IMG/VR virus record: IMGVR_UViG_3300049259_000177 | Coordinates: 1-64,000 of that record | Source: a virus | Direction: 5' to 3' (one strand) | Length of the DNA stretch: 64,000 nucleotides | Shown: positions 3,481 through 49,400 of the stretch, in pieces | Position numbering within the stretch: the first letter of the stretch is position 1 | Layout of the letters: every line of letters starts with the position of its first letter | The notes under the pieces: generated by a model | What the model was told of the DNA's origin: nothing | Databases searched by the model: none | Seen by the model: only the letters and a program-made list of their open reading frames with translations | Translations under genes and position numbers: made by a program

Positions 3481-4158
3481 TCAGCGACCGCTTGGCGCGT
3501 CAGCCGTCGACGAGTCGCGGATCTCTAGCAGGCGGTGCAGGGCGACAATCGGCGCCGTGTCCAGTGGCAGGTCGATCGCGTGCATGGTGAACCCGTCCTC
3601 GCCGGGCTCCCAGGAGATCTCGTGCCCGCACGGGGCGAACCGGGCGGTGGTGCGGACCGGCTCCTGCTTGGCGATCGTGCCGGGCACTTCGAGGATCGGG
3701 CCGCCCGGCCAGGCAGGCGCGGTCTCGACGACGTCGCGGTACTCGGTGTCGATCTGCCAGGACTCGACGAGTCGCTCGCAGTCGTCGGCCGGGCACAGCG
3801 CGTAGGTACGGGTGAGGCCAAGCGCCCTGCTCGCGCGCTCAACCGCTGCCTTCGCGGCCGGGTCCTCGGCAATGACGCGGTCGGCGATCCGGTTGACGCC
3901 GTGCCAGACCGACGTGTGGTGCATCCCGAACACACGGCCCAACGCGGGCAGTGACAGGTTCGTGCGGACTCGGCACAGGTACATCGCGACGTGCCGAGCC
4001 CATACGAGGCCAGCCATCCGTCGGTCGCCGGTGATGTCGGCCGGGGTGAAGCCGAAGGTCTCGGCGGTCACTTGGATGATGCGCTCGGCCTGGATCTCCC
4101 CGGCGGTGGCCTCGGGCTCGGCGGGTGTGCAGCAGCCGTCGCCGGTGTGCTCATGCAC
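3481..4158 (-). CDS. DnaA domain IV-like DNA-binding protein, 225 aa
   Basis: Residues about 25-95 match the DnaA C-terminal DNA-binding domain (domain IV, Bac_DnaA_C): VTAETFGFTPADI, then RMAGLVWARHVAMYL and the signature-like stretch LSLPALGRVFGMHHTSVWHG (consensus LPxIGxxFGxRDHTTVxxA). There is no AAA+ domain, so it cannot act as a full initiator. It may bind DnaA-box-like sites to recruit or compete with host DnaA. The C-terminal 125 residues are unassigned. GTG start (VHEHTGDG) overlaps the DUF3039 gene end by 8 bp; an ATG 2 bp away is in another frame. Confidence 0.8.
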   Translation of the reverse strand: MHEHTGDGCCTPAEPEATAGEIQAERIIQVTAETFGFTPADITGDRRMAGLVWARHVAMYLCRVRTNLSLPALGRVFGMHHTSVWHGVNRIADRVIAEDPAAKAAVERASRALGLTRTYALCPADDCERLVESWQIDTEYRDVVETAPAWPGGPILEVPGTIAKQEPVRTTARFAPCGHEISWEPGEDGFTMHAIDLPLDTAPIVALHRLLEIRDSSTADAPSGR

Positions 4159-4435
4159 CGGATTGCTCGCGTTCCTGCCACTCACGCATCCTGCCTTCCG
4201 GTCCGAGTTCGTAGAGCCGCTTGCACTCGGGACAGACCGGGAACTGCTTGGGATCACGGGTCGGCACCCACACTTTGCCGCAGAGCGCGACGACGGGCTC
4301 GCCGGTCAGCGCGGACTCGGTGGCTTTGCTCTTGTCGACGTAGTGCGCGAACCGTTCGTGGTCGCCGTCGTCGAGTCGGTAGTCGGGCTTGCCGGTGGTG
4401 GTCGTGCCGTGCTCGGTCAGGGTCTCCGTTGTCAT
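4151..4435 (-). CDS. DUF3039-like protein, 94 aa
   Basis: The segment VVALCGKVWVPTRDPKQFPV with the following CPEC and LYELGP matches the actinobacterial DUF3039 pattern (Ala-Leu-Cys-Gly-Lys, Trp-Val-Pro, Asp-Pro, CPxC). The cysteines likely bind zinc. Start MTTETLTEHG is set by a 4-bp overlap with the gene upstream. The molecular role of DUF3039 is not known. Its presence supports an actinobacterial host. Confidence 0.8.
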   Translation of the reverse strand: MTTETLTEHGTTTTGKPDYRLDDGDHERFAHYVDKSKATESALTGEPVVALCGKVWVPTRDPKQFPVCPECKRLYELGPEGRMREWQEREQSGA

Positions 4436-22126: not shown

Positions 22127-22441
22127 GTGGGTGTGGACACACACGACGCCATCACCAGACTCGCCACCCTGCTCGCCGAGATCACCGCTTGCTCGCATGA
22201 CACGCTCGGGACCAGTCGAGCCCAGCGGATCAACGCCTGCTGCTTCGAGATCGTGAGGGCGATGGACTTTCACCCGGACCCGCCACCGCGACAAGGGGGC
22301 ATGACGACCGAACCTTGTCCACATGTGGACAACCTCTGTGGAGATCTCTGTCCAACCGACACGACCGAGCGGTGTGTCCGGCCTACCGAACACTCAGGGC
22401 CGTGGCACGAAGGCGAGCGGCTGCGCTGGCGGCGCGCCTGA
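22127..22441 (+). CDS. Hypothetical protein, 104 aa
   Basis: GTG start (MGVDTHDAITRLATLLAEIT); a second GTG two codons later is equally likely. The N-terminal half is helical. The C-terminal half has a spaced set of Cys/His residues (CPHVDNLCGDLC, RCVRPTEHSG) like a zinc finger. It is a single plus-strand gene between two minus-strand blocks. Confidence 0.6.
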   Translation: MGVDTHDAITRLATLLAEITACSHDTLGTSRAQRINACCFEIVRAMDFHPDPPPRQGGMTTEPCPHVDNLCGDLCPTDTTERCVRPTEHSGPWHEGERLRWRRA

Positions 22442-25496: not shown

Positions 25497-25555
25497 CCTG
25501 GGCACGCTCGTCCCAGGTCAAGCGGAGCGTACACCCGCTTAGCGTGTAGTGGCAA
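25497..25555 (-). promoter_or_regulatory. Class I promoter-operator with hairpin leader
   Basis: Minus strand TTGCCA (25550-25555), 18-bp spacer with CGCTAAGCG (25536-25544), TACGCT (25526-25531). The leader hairpin at 25497-25517 pairs CCTGGG with CCCAGG around ACGAGCGTG, the most divergent loop of the set. The operator includes the TAA stop of the gene at 25539-25748. Confidence 0.8.
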
Positions 25556-25748
25556 GCCCGCGCGCGGCGTCGGAGGCGATCAGGGCCCGGGCGGCACGAG
25601 CGAGGCACTCGTCGCAGTCGGCGCGGCCGTGCGAGCAGGCAGCGGACAGCCCGGCGCGGCGGGCTGCCTCGCGGATGGCGATGTCGAGCGGGTCCGGCCG
25701 GAACGACTCCGGCAGGTCGGCCGTGGTCCACGTGCGCGCAGGGGCCAT
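25539..25748 (-). CDS. Hypothetical protein, 69 aa
   Basis: Begins MAPARTWTTADLPESFRPDP with AGGAGG nine bases upstream. Helical; C-S-H-G-R-A-D-C-D-E-C spacing near residues 38-48 suggests a small zinc site. An in-frame ATG 17 codons upstream lacks a ribosome-binding site. Stands as its own short unit. Confidence 0.7.
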   Translation of the reverse strand: MAPARTWTTADLPESFRPDPLDIAIREAARRAGLSAACSHGRADCDECLARAARALIASDAARGLATTR

Positions 25749-25768
25749 CGTGGGGGCCTCCTGTCTAT

Positions 25769-25830
25769 CGGGCGAGCCCGGGGTGAGGTTCGCTGACACA
25801 CAGGATGGTGCCCATCCGCTTAGCAGTCAA
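25769..25830 (-). promoter_or_regulatory. Degenerate class I control region
   Basis: Operator variant TGCTAAGCG (minus, 25817-25825) with TTGACT (25825-25830) joined directly to it. CATCCT (25802-25807) 17 bp away is a weak -10 box. A short hairpin CGGGC/GCCCG (25769-25780) and CAGGAGG follow, as in the full units, but the loop lacks AGAGCGA. It likely keeps operator binding with reduced promoter strength. Confidence 0.5.
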
Positions 25831-25834
25831 TGCG

Positions 25835-25855
25835 TTACGGATTACGGATTACGGG
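25835..25855. repeat. Three 7-bp tandem repeats
   Basis: TTACGGA at 25835-25841 and 25842-25848, then TTACGGG at 25849-25855. The stretch is notably less GC-rich than its surroundings and sits between a hairpin and a degenerate promoter. Could bind a regulator. Confidence 0.6.
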
Positions 25856-25856
25856 T

Positions 25857-25872
25857 TCGACCGAAAGGTCGA
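25857..25872 (-). terminator. Hairpin after the gene at 25876-26106
   Basis: TCGACC (25857-25862) pairs with GGTCGA (25867-25872) around a GAAA tetraloop. Located four bases beyond the stop codon of the minus-strand gene. No T-tract follows, so termination efficiency is uncertain. Confidence 0.45.
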
Positions 25873-25875
25873 GGA

Positions 25876-26106
25876 TCAGTTGGTCAGGCGGATGCCCGGC
25901 CATGCCGGTCCGGTGTGCCGGTGCTGGCGTAGCAACAGCGCTCGGGCCTTGGCGTCGACCTCGGGCGGCGGAATGACGGGCCGGAGCCGTTTGAGCGCCG
26001 CGACCACCTCGCGGACCAGCCGGGCGAACACCTGAGCCATTCGGCGCCCGGCATCGGCGATCGCAGCCATGAGAGCACGCACGCGTTCGCGCTCCTCGTC
26101 GGTCAT
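25876..26106 (-). CDS. Hypothetical helical protein, 76 aa
   Basis: Begins MTDEERERVRALMAAIADAG with GAGGAGG upstream. Long amphipathic helix in the first 45 residues (RRMAQVFARLVREVVAALKR), then a Pro-rich turn and a basic end. Might be a small DNA- or protein-binding factor. Single gene between two control regions. Confidence 0.65.
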   Translation of the reverse strand: MTDEERERVRALMAAIADAGRRMAQVFARLVREVVAALKRLRPVIPPPEVDAKARALLLRQHRHTGPAWPGIRLTN

Positions 26107-26404
26107 CCAAGGCCTCCTCGTGGGTGGGGCGGGGAGCCCGGTGCCACCAGTGCGAGCGAAGCGACCCGCTCACAGCCCGGCCCGGCGAGCCGGACGACCT
26201 TACCAACCCCTCCGGGGCGCCTGATCTTGCAAGCCGGGTTCCCCGCCGACGGCACCGGCCCCTGGCCTGGGCCCGGCTCGCCGTCTGGCCGTCACCGTGT
26301 GCACCGGCGACGGCCCGCCTTGAATCTAGGGCCGAGTGTCCTCGACGTGGCGCATCAACGAAGCACGAGCCAGGACTTGCGCGGGATTAACGCGCGAATT
26401 TTCG
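26107..26404. other. Intergenic stretch without a supported gene
   Basis: About 300 bp between the helical-protein gene and the palindrome cluster. Plus-strand open frames here are Arg/Pro-rich and lack ribosome-binding sites, and no tRNA cloverleaf could be folded. It may hold a promoter for the gene at 26106, but no class I or II motif is visible. Confidence 0.5.
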
Positions 26405-26498
26405 GCCGACTGTCGGCACCCTTTGTAAGTAAGCAACCGGTTGCTTACTTACAAAAGCGCCCCGGCCGGGGGTTGCTTGTGGCAAGCAACTTACTTAC
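26405..26498. repeat. Palindrome cluster with a 34-bp perfect palindrome
   Basis: 26422-26455 is a perfect 34-bp palindrome whose left arm is TTTGTAAGTAAGCAACC. It is followed by CCCGGCCGGG (26461-26470), an 8-bp inverted repeat GTTGCTTG/CAAGCAAC (26472-26490) and TTACTTAC (26491-26498), a partial second copy of the same half-site. GCCGAC/GTCGGC (26405-26417) lies on the other side. The region is AT-rich for this genome and sits directly downstream of a HTH gene at the end of the replication block: candidate operator, origin or partition-type site. Confidence 0.8.
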
Positions 26499-26721
26499 GT
26501 GGCACGTCGGGCGTCGGGCGTGGTTTCGACAGGGTGAACCGCACGAGTGACACGCTCACGCCCAATCGGCGGGCGATCTCCGGCGGGCGCAGCGAAGCGT
26601 CCTCGACGCGCATGTCGTGGATGGCGGCATCGCGGCGGGCTCGGGCACAGGCGGCAGCCGACTCGTGGCGCTGCTCGTCGGCGATTGCCTGCTTCGCGCG
26701 AACCTCCGGGGTGGCGCTCAC
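26491..26721 (-). CDS. Helix-turn-helix protein, 76 aa
   Basis: GTG start (VSATPEVRAKQAIADEQRHE). The C-terminal half contains a clear HTH (RPPEIARRLGVSVSLVRFTL) with a basic tail. The N-terminal half is a charged helix that might mediate dimerisation. Its stop codon TAA lies in the half-site TTACTTAC of the palindrome cluster, which makes it the natural candidate to bind there. Confidence 0.75.
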   Translation of the reverse strand: MSATPEVRAKQAIADEQRHESAAACARARRDAAIHDMRVEDASLRPPEIARRLGVSVSLVRFTLSKPRPTPDVPRK

Positions 26722-27287
26722 GGGGTGATCACGGGCAGTGGGCCCAGGTGATAGGGGTCGCCGGGTGCGGGCAGGTACGCGCCGACGCACGGCAACAACA
26801 GGACCCGGCGCCCACCGTAGAGCACGACCGGCACGTCGTCGGGTTCGAGGTTGTTCTCCCGGTCGATCAGCCAGCCGAGCGCGCGGGCGGTGTTGCGGTT
26901 GCTCTCGATCCATCCGTGCACGCCGGTGGTGCCGTCGCCGGTGACCGCGAGCAGGTTCGCCAGCGAGTTCGTGTTCGGCCGGTCGGTGCCGCCCATCCCG
27001 CGCGCTCGCCGGTGGTGCGCGCTCCATCGCCCGGCCCGCAGTGGCGCACCGGTGACCTCGCACCGGCCGCCGCAGCGCAGGATCAGCATGTTGCGCACAG
27101 CCGACCATTCGGCCCGGTCGAGGTGCGCCTTCGGGAACGGCGCCGAGTTGCCCCAGTCCAGCCCGCATGAGCAGACGTAGGACAGGTCACCGTCGGCGTC
27201 CCAGGGCAGGGCTCCACCGCAGTGTGGGCAGCGCGACTCGGTGACGATCGGCCGATTGCCGGTGTCACGGAACGCCGGTGATTTCAC
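26718..27287 (-). CDS. HNH endonuclease, 189 aa
   Basis: N-terminal zinc ribbon (CPHCGG, CSCG) followed by the actinophage-type HNH domain: CGGRCEVTGAPL, then WSAHHRRARGMGGTDRPN, NSLANLLAVTGDG and TTGVHGWIESN. The HH pair, central Asn and final His are the metal-binding catalytic set of the beta-beta-alpha-metal fold. Such enzymes nick or cut DNA in homing, packaging or restriction roles. GTG start (VKSPAFRDTG) at the 4-bp overlap; an ATG three codons earlier is possible. Confidence 0.8.
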   Translation of the reverse strand: MKSPAFRDTGNRPIVTESRCPHCGGALPWDADGDLSYVCSCGLDWGNSAPFPKAHLDRAEWSAVRNMLILRCGGRCEVTGAPLRAGRWSAHHRRARGMGGTDRPNTNSLANLLAVTGDGTTGVHGWIESNRNTARALGWLIDRENNLEPDDVPVVLYGGRRVLLLPCVGAYLPAPGDPYHLGPLPVITP

Positions 27288-28242: not shown

Positions 28243-29162
28243 CCGGTCTCCTCGAACATCGCCCGCTGCTCCTGGCGCAACGTGTCCTGTCCAGTGTCGA
28301 CGTGCTTGGTCGCAACCTGCCGCGTCACCCCGCCCAACGACGACTTGCCTTCACGCATCGCCCGGCAGGCGCGATCGAGTTGGGCAGTCGACGGCCAGAC
28401 CGTGTCGTCGCGGGTCTTTATCGCCCGCAATGCGTCAGCGATTTCTCGCTGAGTGAACCCTGAGCGTCGGGCCCCACGGATGAGGTTGCGGAAGCCCGGG
28501 AACCCTGAGCCCCTCCCGGCAGTCACCGGCTTCGGATCGAGGCCCTCCCACCACCACGTCGCGACCTCGTCAGCCTCTTGCTCGGGCGTCTTCTCCCCGG
28601 CCGCCTGCGTCGCAGGCGGATCTTTGGTTCCCTCGGTAGTTGCTACCTCGGTAGTGGTTCCTTCTGTACTTACTCCACCCGGGTTTCCCGCATCCGGGTC
28701 GCCCGCATCCGGGTCGCCCGGTTCCTGAGAATCCGTGTCTGGAACGCTCGAAGGGCTCGGATTCTCCGGTTCCTGAGAATCCGTGTCTGGCGATGACCTG
28801 GGCGTTTGCTTGTCCTCGGCGCCCTCCTGTTTGTTGTCCGCGCCACCCTTGCCGTCAGCGTTGAGTGCGTAGCGGGTGCGGCGCAGGTTGCCCTCGTAGT
28901 AAGGCTCGCGCTCCATGAGGTCGGCGACGGCTAACTCCCTCAGCGCGGTATAGATGGCATCACGACCCTCTTTGAACACCGTCGCGAGGTGGTTCGCGCG
29001 GCACGTCCAGCCATCAGGGCGCCCGATCAAGTAGACGAAGATGCCCCAGGCGCGGGCGCTGAGTTTGCCGTCGGCGGGGAGCAGGTCGTTGTAGACCACG
29101 GTGTAGCCGCGCCGCCGTCGCACGACGATGCCGGGACCACCCTGTTCGACTTCCTCCGTCAT
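28239..29162 (-). CDS. Winged-helix replication initiator, 307 aa
   Basis: Residues about 15-90 form a winged-helix domain of the kind seen in phage initiators (GYTVVYNDLLPADGKLSARA, WGIFVYLIGRP, HLATVFKEGRDAIYTALREL, then YYEGNLRRTRY). A long acidic, repeat-bearing linker (residues 105-190) joins it to a C-terminal helical domain (FRNLIRGARRSGFTQREIAD). The linker DNA carries iteron-like repeats, as in lambda O. It directly precedes the DnaC-like loader gene, the usual initiator-loader pair. Confidence 0.75.
   Translation of the reverse strand: MTEEVEQGGPGIVVRRRRGYTVVYNDLLPADGKLSARAWGIFVYLIGRPDGWTCRANHLATVFKEGRDAIYTALRELAVADLMEREPYYEGNLRRTRYALNADGKGGADNKQEGAEDKQTPRSSPDTDSQEPENPSPSSVPDTDSQEPGDPDAGDPDAGNPGGVSTEGTTTEVATTEGTKDPPATQAAGEKTPEQEADEVATWWWEGLDPKPVTAGRGSGFPGFRNLIRGARRSGFTQREIADALRAIKTRDDTVWPSTAQLDRACRAMREGKSSLGGVTRQVATKHVDTGQDTLRQEQRAMFEETG
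28690..28790. repeat. Iteron-like repeats inside the initiator gene
   Basis: Two identical 25-bp units beginning CCGGTTCCTGAGAATCC lie at 28718-28742 and 28766-28790 (48 bp apart, in frame). Next to them are two 15-bp tandem copies of GCATCCGGGTCGCCC (28690-28719). GGATTCTC (28759-28766) and GAGAATCC (28775-28782) form an inverted repeat. A candidate replication origin bound by the encoded initiator; alternatively only a repetitive linker. Confidence 0.65.
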
Positions 29163-32000: not shown

Positions 32001-32049
32001 AACCGACAACCCGTTACGGGTTGTCGGTTCGGCGTGTCGGGTGTACGGT
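32001..32049 (+). promoter_or_regulatory. Promoter with 29-bp perfect palindrome
   Basis: TTGTCG (32021-32026), 17 bp, TACGGT (32044-32049) drives the plus genes at 32104. The -35 box sits in the right arm of a perfect 29-bp palindrome (32001-32029; left arm AACCGACAACCCGT, central T). A dimeric regulator bound there would block the -35 box. The -10 region GGGTGTACGGT is identical to the class I unit at 39.3 kb, but CGCTAAGCG is absent. Confidence 0.75.
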
Positions 32050-36811: not shown

Positions 36812-38227
36812 CTAGACCTTGCCGCTCACGACGACGTGGTAGGCGTTGAGCGCCGGAGGCGTACCGAAACGCAGCGTGATGGTGTTCGCGTCGGTGACGT
36901 CCCACTCGGTCAACGTGTTCTTGCCGTCGGAGTTGCGCCGCACCGACACGGCGGCGACCTGCGTGCTGCCGAGGTTGTGCGGGATCGCGTACACAGTCGC
37001 AGCCCCGTCGCCGACATCCTGCTCGTAGGCGCGGACCGCCCCGGAGATCTTCGAGACGGCGATCGCGGCGGCGGCCGCAACGTCCGCATTGACGATGGTT
37101 CCGTCGGCGATCTTCGCTGACGTGACGGCACCGTCGGCGATGTTGGTCGTGCCGATCGCCAGTGCTGCGATGTCAGTGCCGACGATGGTTCCGTCGGCGA
37201 TCTTCGCTGACGTGACGGCACCGTCGGCGATCTTCGCGTTGGTGATCGCAAGGTCGGCGACGTTGGTAGTGGCGATCGTCAGGTTGGCGATCTTCGCGCC
37301 AGTGATCGTCGCGTCCTGCATGTCACCGGCGACGATCGTCCCGTCGGCGATGTGTGCGCTCGTCACACCACCGGCGGCGAGACCGATCTGCGGGTTGACG
37401 CCGCCGGTCGAGGTGATCGGCCCAGCGCCGGTGACGGATTGCACGCCGTCGACGGGGCTCTGAAGTTCCTGCCAGTTGGCGAGGACCGTCGGGTCGGCGC
37501 CTTGCAGGATGAACGAGTCGTGGATGTCGGTTCGGATCGCGACGTCGCCGGGCTCGGCAGCGAGCGCGAGCATCGCGGCCTGGCTGGCGACGACAAACGT
37601 GTTGGTGATCGCGAGCGCCGGAAGCAGGCCGGTCGGCAGTAGTCCGTTCGCGTCGAGCCCGGCGAAGCCGTTGGCGACGTTGCGGCCACCGACGATGTTG
37701 GTGACGCGTGCATCGGTGGCGAAAGCGAAGTCGGAGATCGTCGCGGCGGTCTGCGTGCCCGTGTGGTTGGCGCGGGCGAGCGGGTCGACCGCCAGTTTGC
37801 TCAGCAGGATCGCGGCACCGGCCGCAATGTCGGCGTCGACGATGTTGAGCGCGGCCAGTTTCGCTTTCGCGATTGCGGCACCGGCCGCAATGTCGGCGTC
37901 GACGATGGTTCCGTCGGCGATCTTCGCTGACGTGACGGCACCGTCGGCGATCTTGCCGGTGGTCACGGCGAGCGGAGCGACCGTCGGGTTCGGGTAGTTG
38001 CCCGCCAGGTCGCCTCCGGCCGGGCCGGACGGAGCGGTCGAGCCGAACACGACGGACTGTACCTGCGCGCCGTCCCAGTAGCGGATCTGGTCGGTCGAGG
38101 TGTTGTACCAGACCCGGCCCTCGTCGGCGGCTATCAGCCCGGACGGGTCGGCGGCGAGCGCCTGCAACTTGAGGTTGAAGATCTGGAACCCCGCCATGTC
38201 GAGGTTGTTGGTTGCCGGGATAGCCAC
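36812..38227 (-). CDS. Repeat-rich tail fibre, 471 aa
   Basis: GTG start with TAGGAG (VAIPATNNLDMAGFQIFNLK). The N-terminal module ('GFQIFNL', 'VWYNTSTDQIRYWDG') is a typical fibre-attachment head. Residues about 90-380 contain repeated units of the form IADGAVTSAKIADGTIV, suggesting a long triple-stranded beta-helix or shaft. A C-terminal domain (VYAIPHNLGSTQVAAVSVRR) ends the fibre. The DNA repeats could recombine to change length. Confidence 0.8.
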   Translation of the reverse strand: MAIPATNNLDMAGFQIFNLKLQALAADPSGLIAADEGRVWYNTSTDQIRYWDGAQVQSVVFGSTAPSGPAGGDLAGNYPNPTVAPLAVTTGKIADGAVTSAKIADGTIVDADIAAGAAIAKAKLAALNIVDADIAAGAAILLSKLAVDPLARANHTGTQTAATISDFAFATDARVTNIVGGRNVANGFAGLDANGLLPTGLLPALAITNTFVVASQAAMLALAAEPGDVAIRTDIHDSFILQGADPTVLANWQELQSPVDGVQSVTGAGPITSTGGVNPQIGLAAGGVTSAHIADGTIVAGDMQDATITGAKIANLTIATTNVADLAITNAKIADGAVTSAKIADGTIVGTDIAALAIGTTNIADGAVTSAKIADGTIVNADVAAAAAIAVSKISGAVRAYEQDVGDGAATVYAIPHNLGSTQVAAVSVRRNSDGKNTLTEWDVTDANTITLRFGTPPALNAYHVVVSGKV

Positions 38228-46477: not shown

Positions 46478-49400
46478 TCACGCGGCGGCGAGAGCGTCGA
46501 CCTGCTTGCGTAGCGTTGCGATCTCCGCCTTGAGCGCAGCGAGGTCGGCGTCGTGCTCCTTGACGATCGGGAGCAGCGGAACCCAGCCCCGGGCGTAGTC
46601 GACGCTGTCGACGCTGTCGAGGTAGTGGATGACGAGTTCGTCGAGACCGGCCGCCCACACCTCCTCGGCGATCAGCCCCCACTGCAACTGCTCGTTGGGC
46701 TCCTCGTCGTCGAACAGGTCAGTGCGCCAGTTGTACTCGACGGCACGGGCCTTGAAGATGCGGCGCGGGTCGGACAGGTCGGCGATGTTCTGCTTGAACC
46801 GTTCAGAGGATGAGATCTTGCCGAGCCTGAATGGCGAGCCAGACCCCCAGATCGTCGACGCATTGTTGGTCGTATATCCGTTGATCGTGTCGGCGCCGTA
46901 GAACGCCACGCCGGTCAACTCGAAGTTGGCGTTACAGGAGATGGTGCCACCACCGTTGTTGATCTGGCCGACGGCGTTGATCGCGTAGCCGCCCATGCCC
47001 AGCCCGCCGGTGATCGACGGGCTGGCGAGCGTGACACCGGAGATGGTGTGGCCGTTGCCGACGACGTCGGTGCCGAGGTAGATCCCCGTACCGATGCTGC
47101 CAAGGCTGACCGACCCGTTTATGGACACCGATTGGTTGGCTGCGCCGATACTGATCAGGCCGTTGCTTTGCATGATGATCAGCGAGCCTGCGTTGACCAG
47201 CGTCAATGACGTGCCGCCGCTGTAGCCGATACCAGCCGAGCCGCCGGAAGAGTTGTAGAAGTAGATGGTGTCGGCACCACTGCTGCTGATCTCGACGCGC
47301 GCACCTGACGCGGCGGTGCGGATCAGGCCGCCGGTGATCGTCCCGCCGGTGACCGAGATGAACGGCGCACCGCCGCTGATCGCCATAGTGGCGACTTCGA
47401 TGCCACCGGAGTCGAAAACATGAAAGCCGGAGCCGTTCATCTCGGTGCGTGCGCCGGAGTCGGCGGTCTTGATGCGCGCGGACACCGTGACGTCCGCCGT
47501 CAGGAGACCGGCGATGAGCGAGCCGACGCTGACCGTCGCGATCTTCGCCGCCTGAATGGTCGCGTCGACGATCTTGGCGTTGGTGATCGTCGCGTCACCG
47601 ATCTTGGCGTTGATGATCGTGCCGTCGGCGATCTGCGCGGTGCCGATAGCGGCGTTGGCGATCTGCGCGGTGCCGACAGCGGCGTTGGCGATCTTGGCTG
47701 TGACGATCGACGCGTCAGCGATGTTCGCCGTCCCGACGGCAAGGGCGCCGATCTTCGCGTTGGTGATCGCCGCGTCCGCGATCTTCGCCGTGGTGATCGC
47801 CGCGTCCGCGATCTGTGCCGATCCGACCACTCGCCGCAACTGGATGTCGTCCACCCAGATCGAGGACCCGGCGGGGGAGGTGTTGAGCGCCCAAACCGAC
47901 AGCAGCATCTCTTGCATACCGGCAGGCACCACGAACAAGCCCTCGTACTTCGCTGTCGCGACGCCGACAGCCGTCGGGGCGATCGGCGTCGCGCTCAGTG
48001 TGGCCGCCGCGTTGAACATGGTCACTTGCAGCATCGCCCCGGCCACTGAACCGCGAGCCTGTATCGAGATGTACCACACGTCACCGGGCGTGGTGCCTAT
48101 CGTCCCTTGGGGCGCAGCGGTGACCAGGATCGCGCTGTTGCTGGTGGCGGCCGTTCCCGAAGGTGTCAGTTTCATCGACTTCGAGCCGTTGATCGGCGCG
48201 GCTACATCCAATGCGACGGCGCCCGAGTATCCCGATGCAACCCCGGACTTCCAGCCTGCCGCCATCGTCGGTGCGGCGGACGATACTTCCTCGAAGCCGG
48301 GGTTGAGCAGCACGTTGTCGGACAGTGCGCCGACGGTCAACTTCTCGGTGCTGACGGCACCGGAGGCGATCTGTGTCGCCGTAATGGCGCCCGCAGCGAT
48401 CAAGCCGGTGGTGATCGCGCCGGTGATGATCTTCGGCGTGGTGATCGCACCGTCGGCGATCTGCGCCGTCACCGTGACCTTGCGCATCTCCACGGCATCG
48501 ACGCATAGGTAGTTCCCGGTATTCGGGTGCGAGTTATAGACGACGACCTGGGCGTAACTGGCTCCGGCGGGCGCTGTCCGCTGACCCTCGTAGACTTGGT
48601 CGTTCTTCGTGCCACCGGGGCCGCCGACATTGCTCAGGTAATCGACTGAACCGATCAGGCTCTTGTTGCCGTCGTACCAATTGACGCGCAGATAGATGCC
48701 GTTGGTCACGGCAGTGGTGTTGCCGTAGAGCATGCGCAGAAAGTAAGCCGCGCCGCCTTGGACAGGAATGAAGTCCGACCAGATGGAGGTCCAACTCGCC
48801 GGATCGGCGAACAACACGGCATATTGCTGCCCCGACGTCGCCCGTGCGGCGCTGAGTTCCAAGTAGGAGTTCGCCTGATTGGAGGTGTCCGCGTTGTTGT
48901 ACCAGCGCGCAATATTCAACGTGTTACCGGTCGGTGCGTTTAGTGCGACGCCGATGTCCTCGAAAGAGGAGTTCGGCAGGAGGTTGTCGCCGATGGCCCC
49001 GATGGTCAGTTTCTCGGCAGTCACCGCCCCGGCGGCGATCTGAGTAGCCGTGACCGCCCCGGCGGCAAGGACTGCTGTGGTAACGCTGCCTGCGATGAGT
49101 TTGGGGGTGGAGATCGAGCCGTCGGCGATCTGCGTCGACGTGACTGCGTTCGCCGCAATGATTGCAGAGGTGACCGAGTTGACCGCGAGCACAGCAGTCG
49201 TGACGCTGCCAGCAGCGAGTTGGGTGGTGCCGACCGTGCCGGGCAGGATCTCATCGGGCATCGGCGAATAGGCTGTGGCGACATTACCTCGCTCGATCTG
49301 TAGCCCGTCGAAGTAAACGCCCGCGCCAGTTGTGCCGTAGAGACGCAGGTCGACAGACGTTGTCGTCGGTCCGGAGGTGAGCGGGATCTCGATGATCTGC

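Follow-up and report, generated by a model that had tools for sequence, protein, structure and literature searches.

Long palindromic operators are already well known, and a number of described systems resemble the locus presented here. The IR1 operator of QacR, a TetR-family regulator of Staphylococcus aureus, is a 28-bp perfect palindrome (CTTATAGACCGATCGATCGGTCTATAAG) built of 14-bp half-sites with zero spacer, to which a pair of dimers binds (PMC9210681). CgmR of Corynebacterium glutamicum is also bound as a pair of dimers, to an operator of 32 bp with 14-bp repeats (PMC3617543). The AcrR operator of acrAB in E. coli spans 24 bp (TACATACATTTGTGAATGTATGTA; PMC9769551). In mycobacteriophage BPs, the small helix-turn-helix (HTH) repressor gp33, a tetramer in solution, recognizes palindromic sites together with sub-sites (PMC4557955). 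The palindrome described below is probably a further instance of such a site, for which several proteins are candidate binders.

The window analyzed here comprises 64,000 bp and is part of a 114,594-bp IMG/VR virus record that has no end repeats and may be a fragment. Positions 26422-26455 of the window form a perfect palindrome of 34 bp, in which two 17-bp arms (TTTGTAAGTAAGCAACC directly followed by GGTTGCTTACTTACAAA) are 100% complementary, with no mismatch and zero spacer. No other zero-spacer palindrome of the window is as long, the runner-up measuring 18 bp (22315-22332), and of all 34-bp stretches it is the richest in AT, with 65% AT compared to a G+C content of about 68% for the window as a whole. 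Centres with arms of at least 17 bp are expected by chance 3e-5 times per 64 kb and 5.6e-5 times per 114.6 kb, figures to which some selection applies, since the palindrome was singled out from a large scan. In 60 windows simulated with a third-order Markov model, the longest zero-spacer arm measured 14 bp, as opposed to the 17 bp observed. The first-pass annotation had described a perfect palindrome in an AT-rich patch of a GC-rich genome that was very unlikely to have arisen by chance, and its coordinates, its symmetry, its base composition and its improbability were all borne out. The palindrome is almost certainly real, and for practical purposes a chance origin is ruled out.

Within the palindrome, TTT and AAA flank a perfect 28-bp core (26425-26452) that consists of an inverted pair of the 14-bp half-site GGTTGCTTACTTAC. 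Parts of this half-site recur next to the palindrome and nowhere else in the 64 kb. The unit TTACTTAC is found at 26425-26432 (- strand), 26445-26452 (+ strand) and 26491-26498 (+ strand), three copies where shuffling predicts 0.02 per 64 kb. The unit GGTTGCTT is found at 26431-26438 (- strand), 26439-26446 (+ strand) and 26471-26478 (+ strand); its clustering is weaker evidence on its own, because 0.61 copies are already expected. Together the six copies lie within 78 bp, those of TTACTTAC within 74 bp, and the two TTACTTAC units inside the palindrome lie 20 bp apart from centre to centre, which corresponds arithmetically to about two helical turns. The outermost units make up a third, interrupted copy of GGTTGCTTACTTAC on the + strand (26471-26498), reading GGTTGCTT-GTGGCAAGCAAC-TTACTTAC, in which 12 bases (GTGGCAAGCAAC) split the half-site and thereby give rise to an 8-bp inverted repeat, GTTGCTTG-TGG-CAAGCAAC (26472-26490). 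Both the recurring half-site at 26491-26498 and the inverted repeat lying in between had been noted previously, and both were recovered in our analysis. Altogether, the palindrome and its right flank have three 8-mers in common, which about 0.04% of shuffled flanks match. We count the third half-site as evidence separate from the palindrome itself.

Short inverted repeats that had not been noted before are located at 26405-26417, 26460-26471 and 26497-26507. The first of these (GCCGAC-T-GTCGGC), on the left side of the array, may be a chance product, and the second, which separates the two main elements and is a GC palindrome of 12 bp (CCCCGGCCGGGG), may likewise have arisen by chance in a GC-rich genome. 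No further copy of the palindrome was detected in the 114.6-kb record at up to 3 mismatches, nor by near-exact patterns in IMG/VR (two patterns) or in GTDB contigs, searches that diverged relatives could escape, and no similar DNA was found in phages or plasmids. A tRNA-type attachment site was rejected, with no tRNA and no Rfam match, as was the end of a mobile element, the half-site not recurring on the far side of the HNH and HTH genes.

Compared with the described operators, the core shares with QacR IR1 the perfect 28-bp palindrome, the 14-bp half-sites and the missing spacer, and with the CgmR operator the 14-bp repeats. It differs from both in its unrelated sequence and in the additional, interrupted third half-site, and any overlap of it with a promoter is putative. 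The long palindrome of approximately 14-bp half-sites that characterizes QacR-type operators is thus found at 26425-26452, while a TetR-family regulator encoded nearby is not: the TetR_N domain has no match in the 114.6-kb record, even at E 1, and a host regulator is possible. The AcrR operator resembles the palindrome in its repeated four-base steps, but has a different sequence, a four-base spacer and a known regulator, and is a near-palindrome. The operators of BPs gp33 are similar in that they combine an actinobacterial phage, a small HTH protein and a palindrome plus sub-sites; they differ in that the palindrome is only 12 bp long, lies in a divergent promoter region and belongs to several sites across the genome.

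The palindrome is located in the replication/terS region, where the leftward gene order is initiator-like gene, DnaC-like loader gene, an ORF of 78 aa, HNH gene, HTH gene, a 384-bp gap, small ORFs and terS. The gap (26107-26490), which contains the palindrome, separates genes on the same strand; its length is unremarkable, with many longer gaps listed by what is a crude gene call. Downstream of it follows an ORF of 76 aa (25876-26106, - strand) with a strong Shine-Dalgarno sequence (AGGAGG) before its ATG and with no clear family, presumed to head the operon that would be under the control of the site. A small tandem repeat of TTACGGA (2.9 copies, 25835-25854) is present in the gap upstream of the next ORF (25539-25799). 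On the other side of the palindrome lies an HTH-type ORF (26491-26721, - strand), also of 76 aa, with a GTG start, which is a candidate binder by position. Its stop codon (TAA, 26493-26491) overlaps the last TTACTTAC and hence the third half-site, consistent with the earlier description of this protein as ending inside the repeat. The protein displays weak HTH matches in Pfam and PHROG, those in Pfam below cut-off, and no detectable homologue in phages, plasmids or IMG/VR. Its structure model (single sequence, mean pLDDT 75.6) consists of just a long helix and a generic HTH, and the fold matches are to generic HTH domains with E above 0.3.

We posit that the palindrome is a DNA operator for a symmetric regulator acting as a pair of dimers, to which we assign a probability of roughly 0.55. 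What is observed is a symmetric, AT-rich site with clustered repeat units, placed between genes of the same strand; from these features we infer protein binding, repression or activation, and a target promoter. The regulator, probably in the form of two dimers or a tetramer, would occupy both 14-bp half-sites in the core (26425-26452), and the third, interrupted one (26471-26498) would serve as an auxiliary or weak site. From this position it would control transcription that passes leftward through the 384-bp gap into the operon extending from gene 25876-26106 towards terS. In a binding-site array, the half-site unit would be expected to recur beyond the palindrome, as it does, and its presence for a third time is an arrangement for which an RNA hairpin has no need. 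The stem also argues for an operator in being AT-rich, whereas terminator-like hairpins at other places in the record are GC-rich. Counting against an operator are the lack of a TetR_N match and of further copies of the palindrome in the record, the distance of about 316 bp from the palindrome to the next start codon downstream, and the better folding of the sense RNA compared with the antisense RNA, which mildly favours a role at the RNA level. A scan for consensus sigma-70-type promoters, the one type covered, detected none within 25700-27000.

The site may be bound by the 76-aa HTH protein, by a different HTH protein of the phage or by a factor of the host. The 76-aa HTH gene has the palindrome on its downstream side and not in its promoter, and its product is a plausible binder by adjacency alone, but an unlikely one. 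Of the operator proposed in the first-pass annotation, the non-random palindrome with the features of a protein site stands, and an operator is its best reading, with the 76-aa protein as a candidate binder.

The strongest competing explanation, although rather less probable, is that the palindrome forms a hairpin at the 3' end of an RNA, either an intrinsic-type terminator or a structure for stability or processing, which closes the replication-side operon after the HTH gene. The hairpin indeed begins directly past the stop codon, in the gap separating same-strand genes, and the region 26380-26510 folds at -58 kcal/mol (z -4.5) as sense RNA and at -53.6 kcal/mol (z -2.7) as antisense RNA. The sense RNA folds better because G-U pairs extend its stem; through these pairs the 10-nt flanks lengthen the sense-strand stem (-31.1 versus -23.0 kcal/mol). 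Among random genomic flanks, just 3.5% match the real ones, a result that is weak and was examined after the fact, and folding past the stop codon ranks just fifth among 69 genes. A stem-loop after a stop codon, as in the intrinsic terminators of GC-rich genomes, is present, but no U-run follows the stem, and no terminator-like site was called at the palindrome. The stem has a G+C content of 35%, whereas the terminator-like hairpins of the record, at 34.1 kb between convergent genes and at record positions 66922-66957, are GC-rich and have loops. The latter, just downstream of the capsid gene, resembles the palindrome in following closely after a stop codon, but it is GC-rich with a four-base loop, while the palindrome is AT-rich with neither spacer nor U-run. 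Moreover, an RNA hairpin leaves the third copy of the half-site and the perfect central symmetry unexplained.

It is improbable that the palindrome is a replication element of the nearby module, such as an initiator binding site, a strand-opening site or a cruciform/nick site. The initiator-like and DnaC-like loader genes are 1.0-3 kb away, the palindrome coincides with the most AT-rich stretch of its length, and as single-stranded DNA it would give a clear hairpin. Cumulative GC skew, which had been suggested as a check on an origin at this position, has no turning point that would single out 26.4 kb at a resolution of 2 kb, the only two exact DnaA boxes of the record are 4 kb off, and no iterons are found beside the palindrome. 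Iteron-like repeats are instead located inside the initiator-like gene at 28.68-28.79 kb, an arrangement known from lambda O. They comprise a 25-bp exact repeat present twice, 48 bp apart, and a 15-bp unit present 2.8 times (28679-28790). These repeats, which also encode a low-complexity linker, are a candidate origin and a better one than the palindrome, for which the origin proposed earlier has neither skew nor iterons in its favour.

Also encoded in the window is a protein of 258 aa that carries DnaA domain IV (3481-4257, - strand; PF08299, E 3e-20), and a related domain is present in few phage records. Both exact TTRTCCACA boxes of the 114.6-kb record are arranged back to back in an 18-bp palindrome, TTGTCCACA followed by TGTGGACAA (22315-22332), which falls within a possible + strand ORF (22127-22441). 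Possible readings are a phage protein that binds DnaA boxes and has a paired site of its own, or a decoy for host DnaA.

Still less probable is an assembly artefact or a functionless by-product of mutation, arising by template switching at a TTRC-type repeat. On inspection, the four-base periodicity of the arms (GTAA GTAA GCAA) favours slippage and quasi-palindrome correction, but the symmetry does not continue into the flanks, and the adjacent ORF remains intact as far as its stop codon in the array. To our knowledge, phage genomes seldom retain long perfect palindromes without selection, which we count against such a by-product. We regard it as very improbable that the array works at two levels, with the duplex bound by the 76-aa protein as a new type of small HTH regulator from phages, whose own stop codon would fall within its binding site, and with the sense RNA hairpin ending or protecting the message, thereby coupling the replication operon to the terS-side operon. 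A parS partition, attachment, telomere-resolution or packaging site is the least probable explanation, for although some of these sites have perfect palindromes and terS is only 2.3 kb away, the 114.6-kb record, possibly incomplete, contains no ParB_N domain (even at E 1), no tyrosine recombinase (PF00589), no serine resolvase (PF00239) and no protelomerase (PF16684), which leaves the partition or attachment site considered previously without its proteins, and terS is far from terL in the record, as it is in Streptomyces phage Gilgamesh, whose terL sits at the genome end.

The 114.6-kb record is an orphan of actinophage-like character. Searches with the HTH, HNH, DnaC-like, terS, exonuclease, initiator and capsid proteins yielded no close kin and only distant ones, of which Gilgamesh was the best. 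The capsid, terS, initiator and loader proteins have distant kin in this phage, the comparisons for initiator, loader and terS being weak but mutually consistent. Gilgamesh has no match to the HTH protein and no copy of the palindrome. Its loader gene is followed by a membrane protein gene instead of the HNH and HTH genes, and because of this different gene order it is unsuited as a test of conservation; no relatives with the same gene order around the palindrome were found.

A second strong inverted repeat, AACCGACAACCCGT-T-ACGGGTTGTCGGTT (32001-32029), is located in a gap between divergent genes and represents another operator-like site, with a sequence different from that of the palindrome at 26422-26455. 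Related tandem repeats of 15, 30 and 90 bp (GTCGGCGATCTTCGCG type) are present at 37091-37297 and at 47561-47827, the second within the tail-fibre gene. Judged by eye from the ORF list, three ORFs of the record are seemingly split by intein-like stretches, namely those of a DnaB-type helicase (record 91723-94275), a capsid-maturation-type protein (record 68456-72061) and a UvrD-like helicase (record 76194-77795).

If the palindrome is an operator, it would identify a site of regulation between the replication and the packaging genes in a lineage of large actinophage-like viruses, to which the collections searched contain no close relatives. It would also provide a concrete DNA bait with which its regulator might be found. 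Since its sequence is unique in the collections searched, it could also be used as an operator, both specific and orthogonal, for genetic work in actinobacteria.
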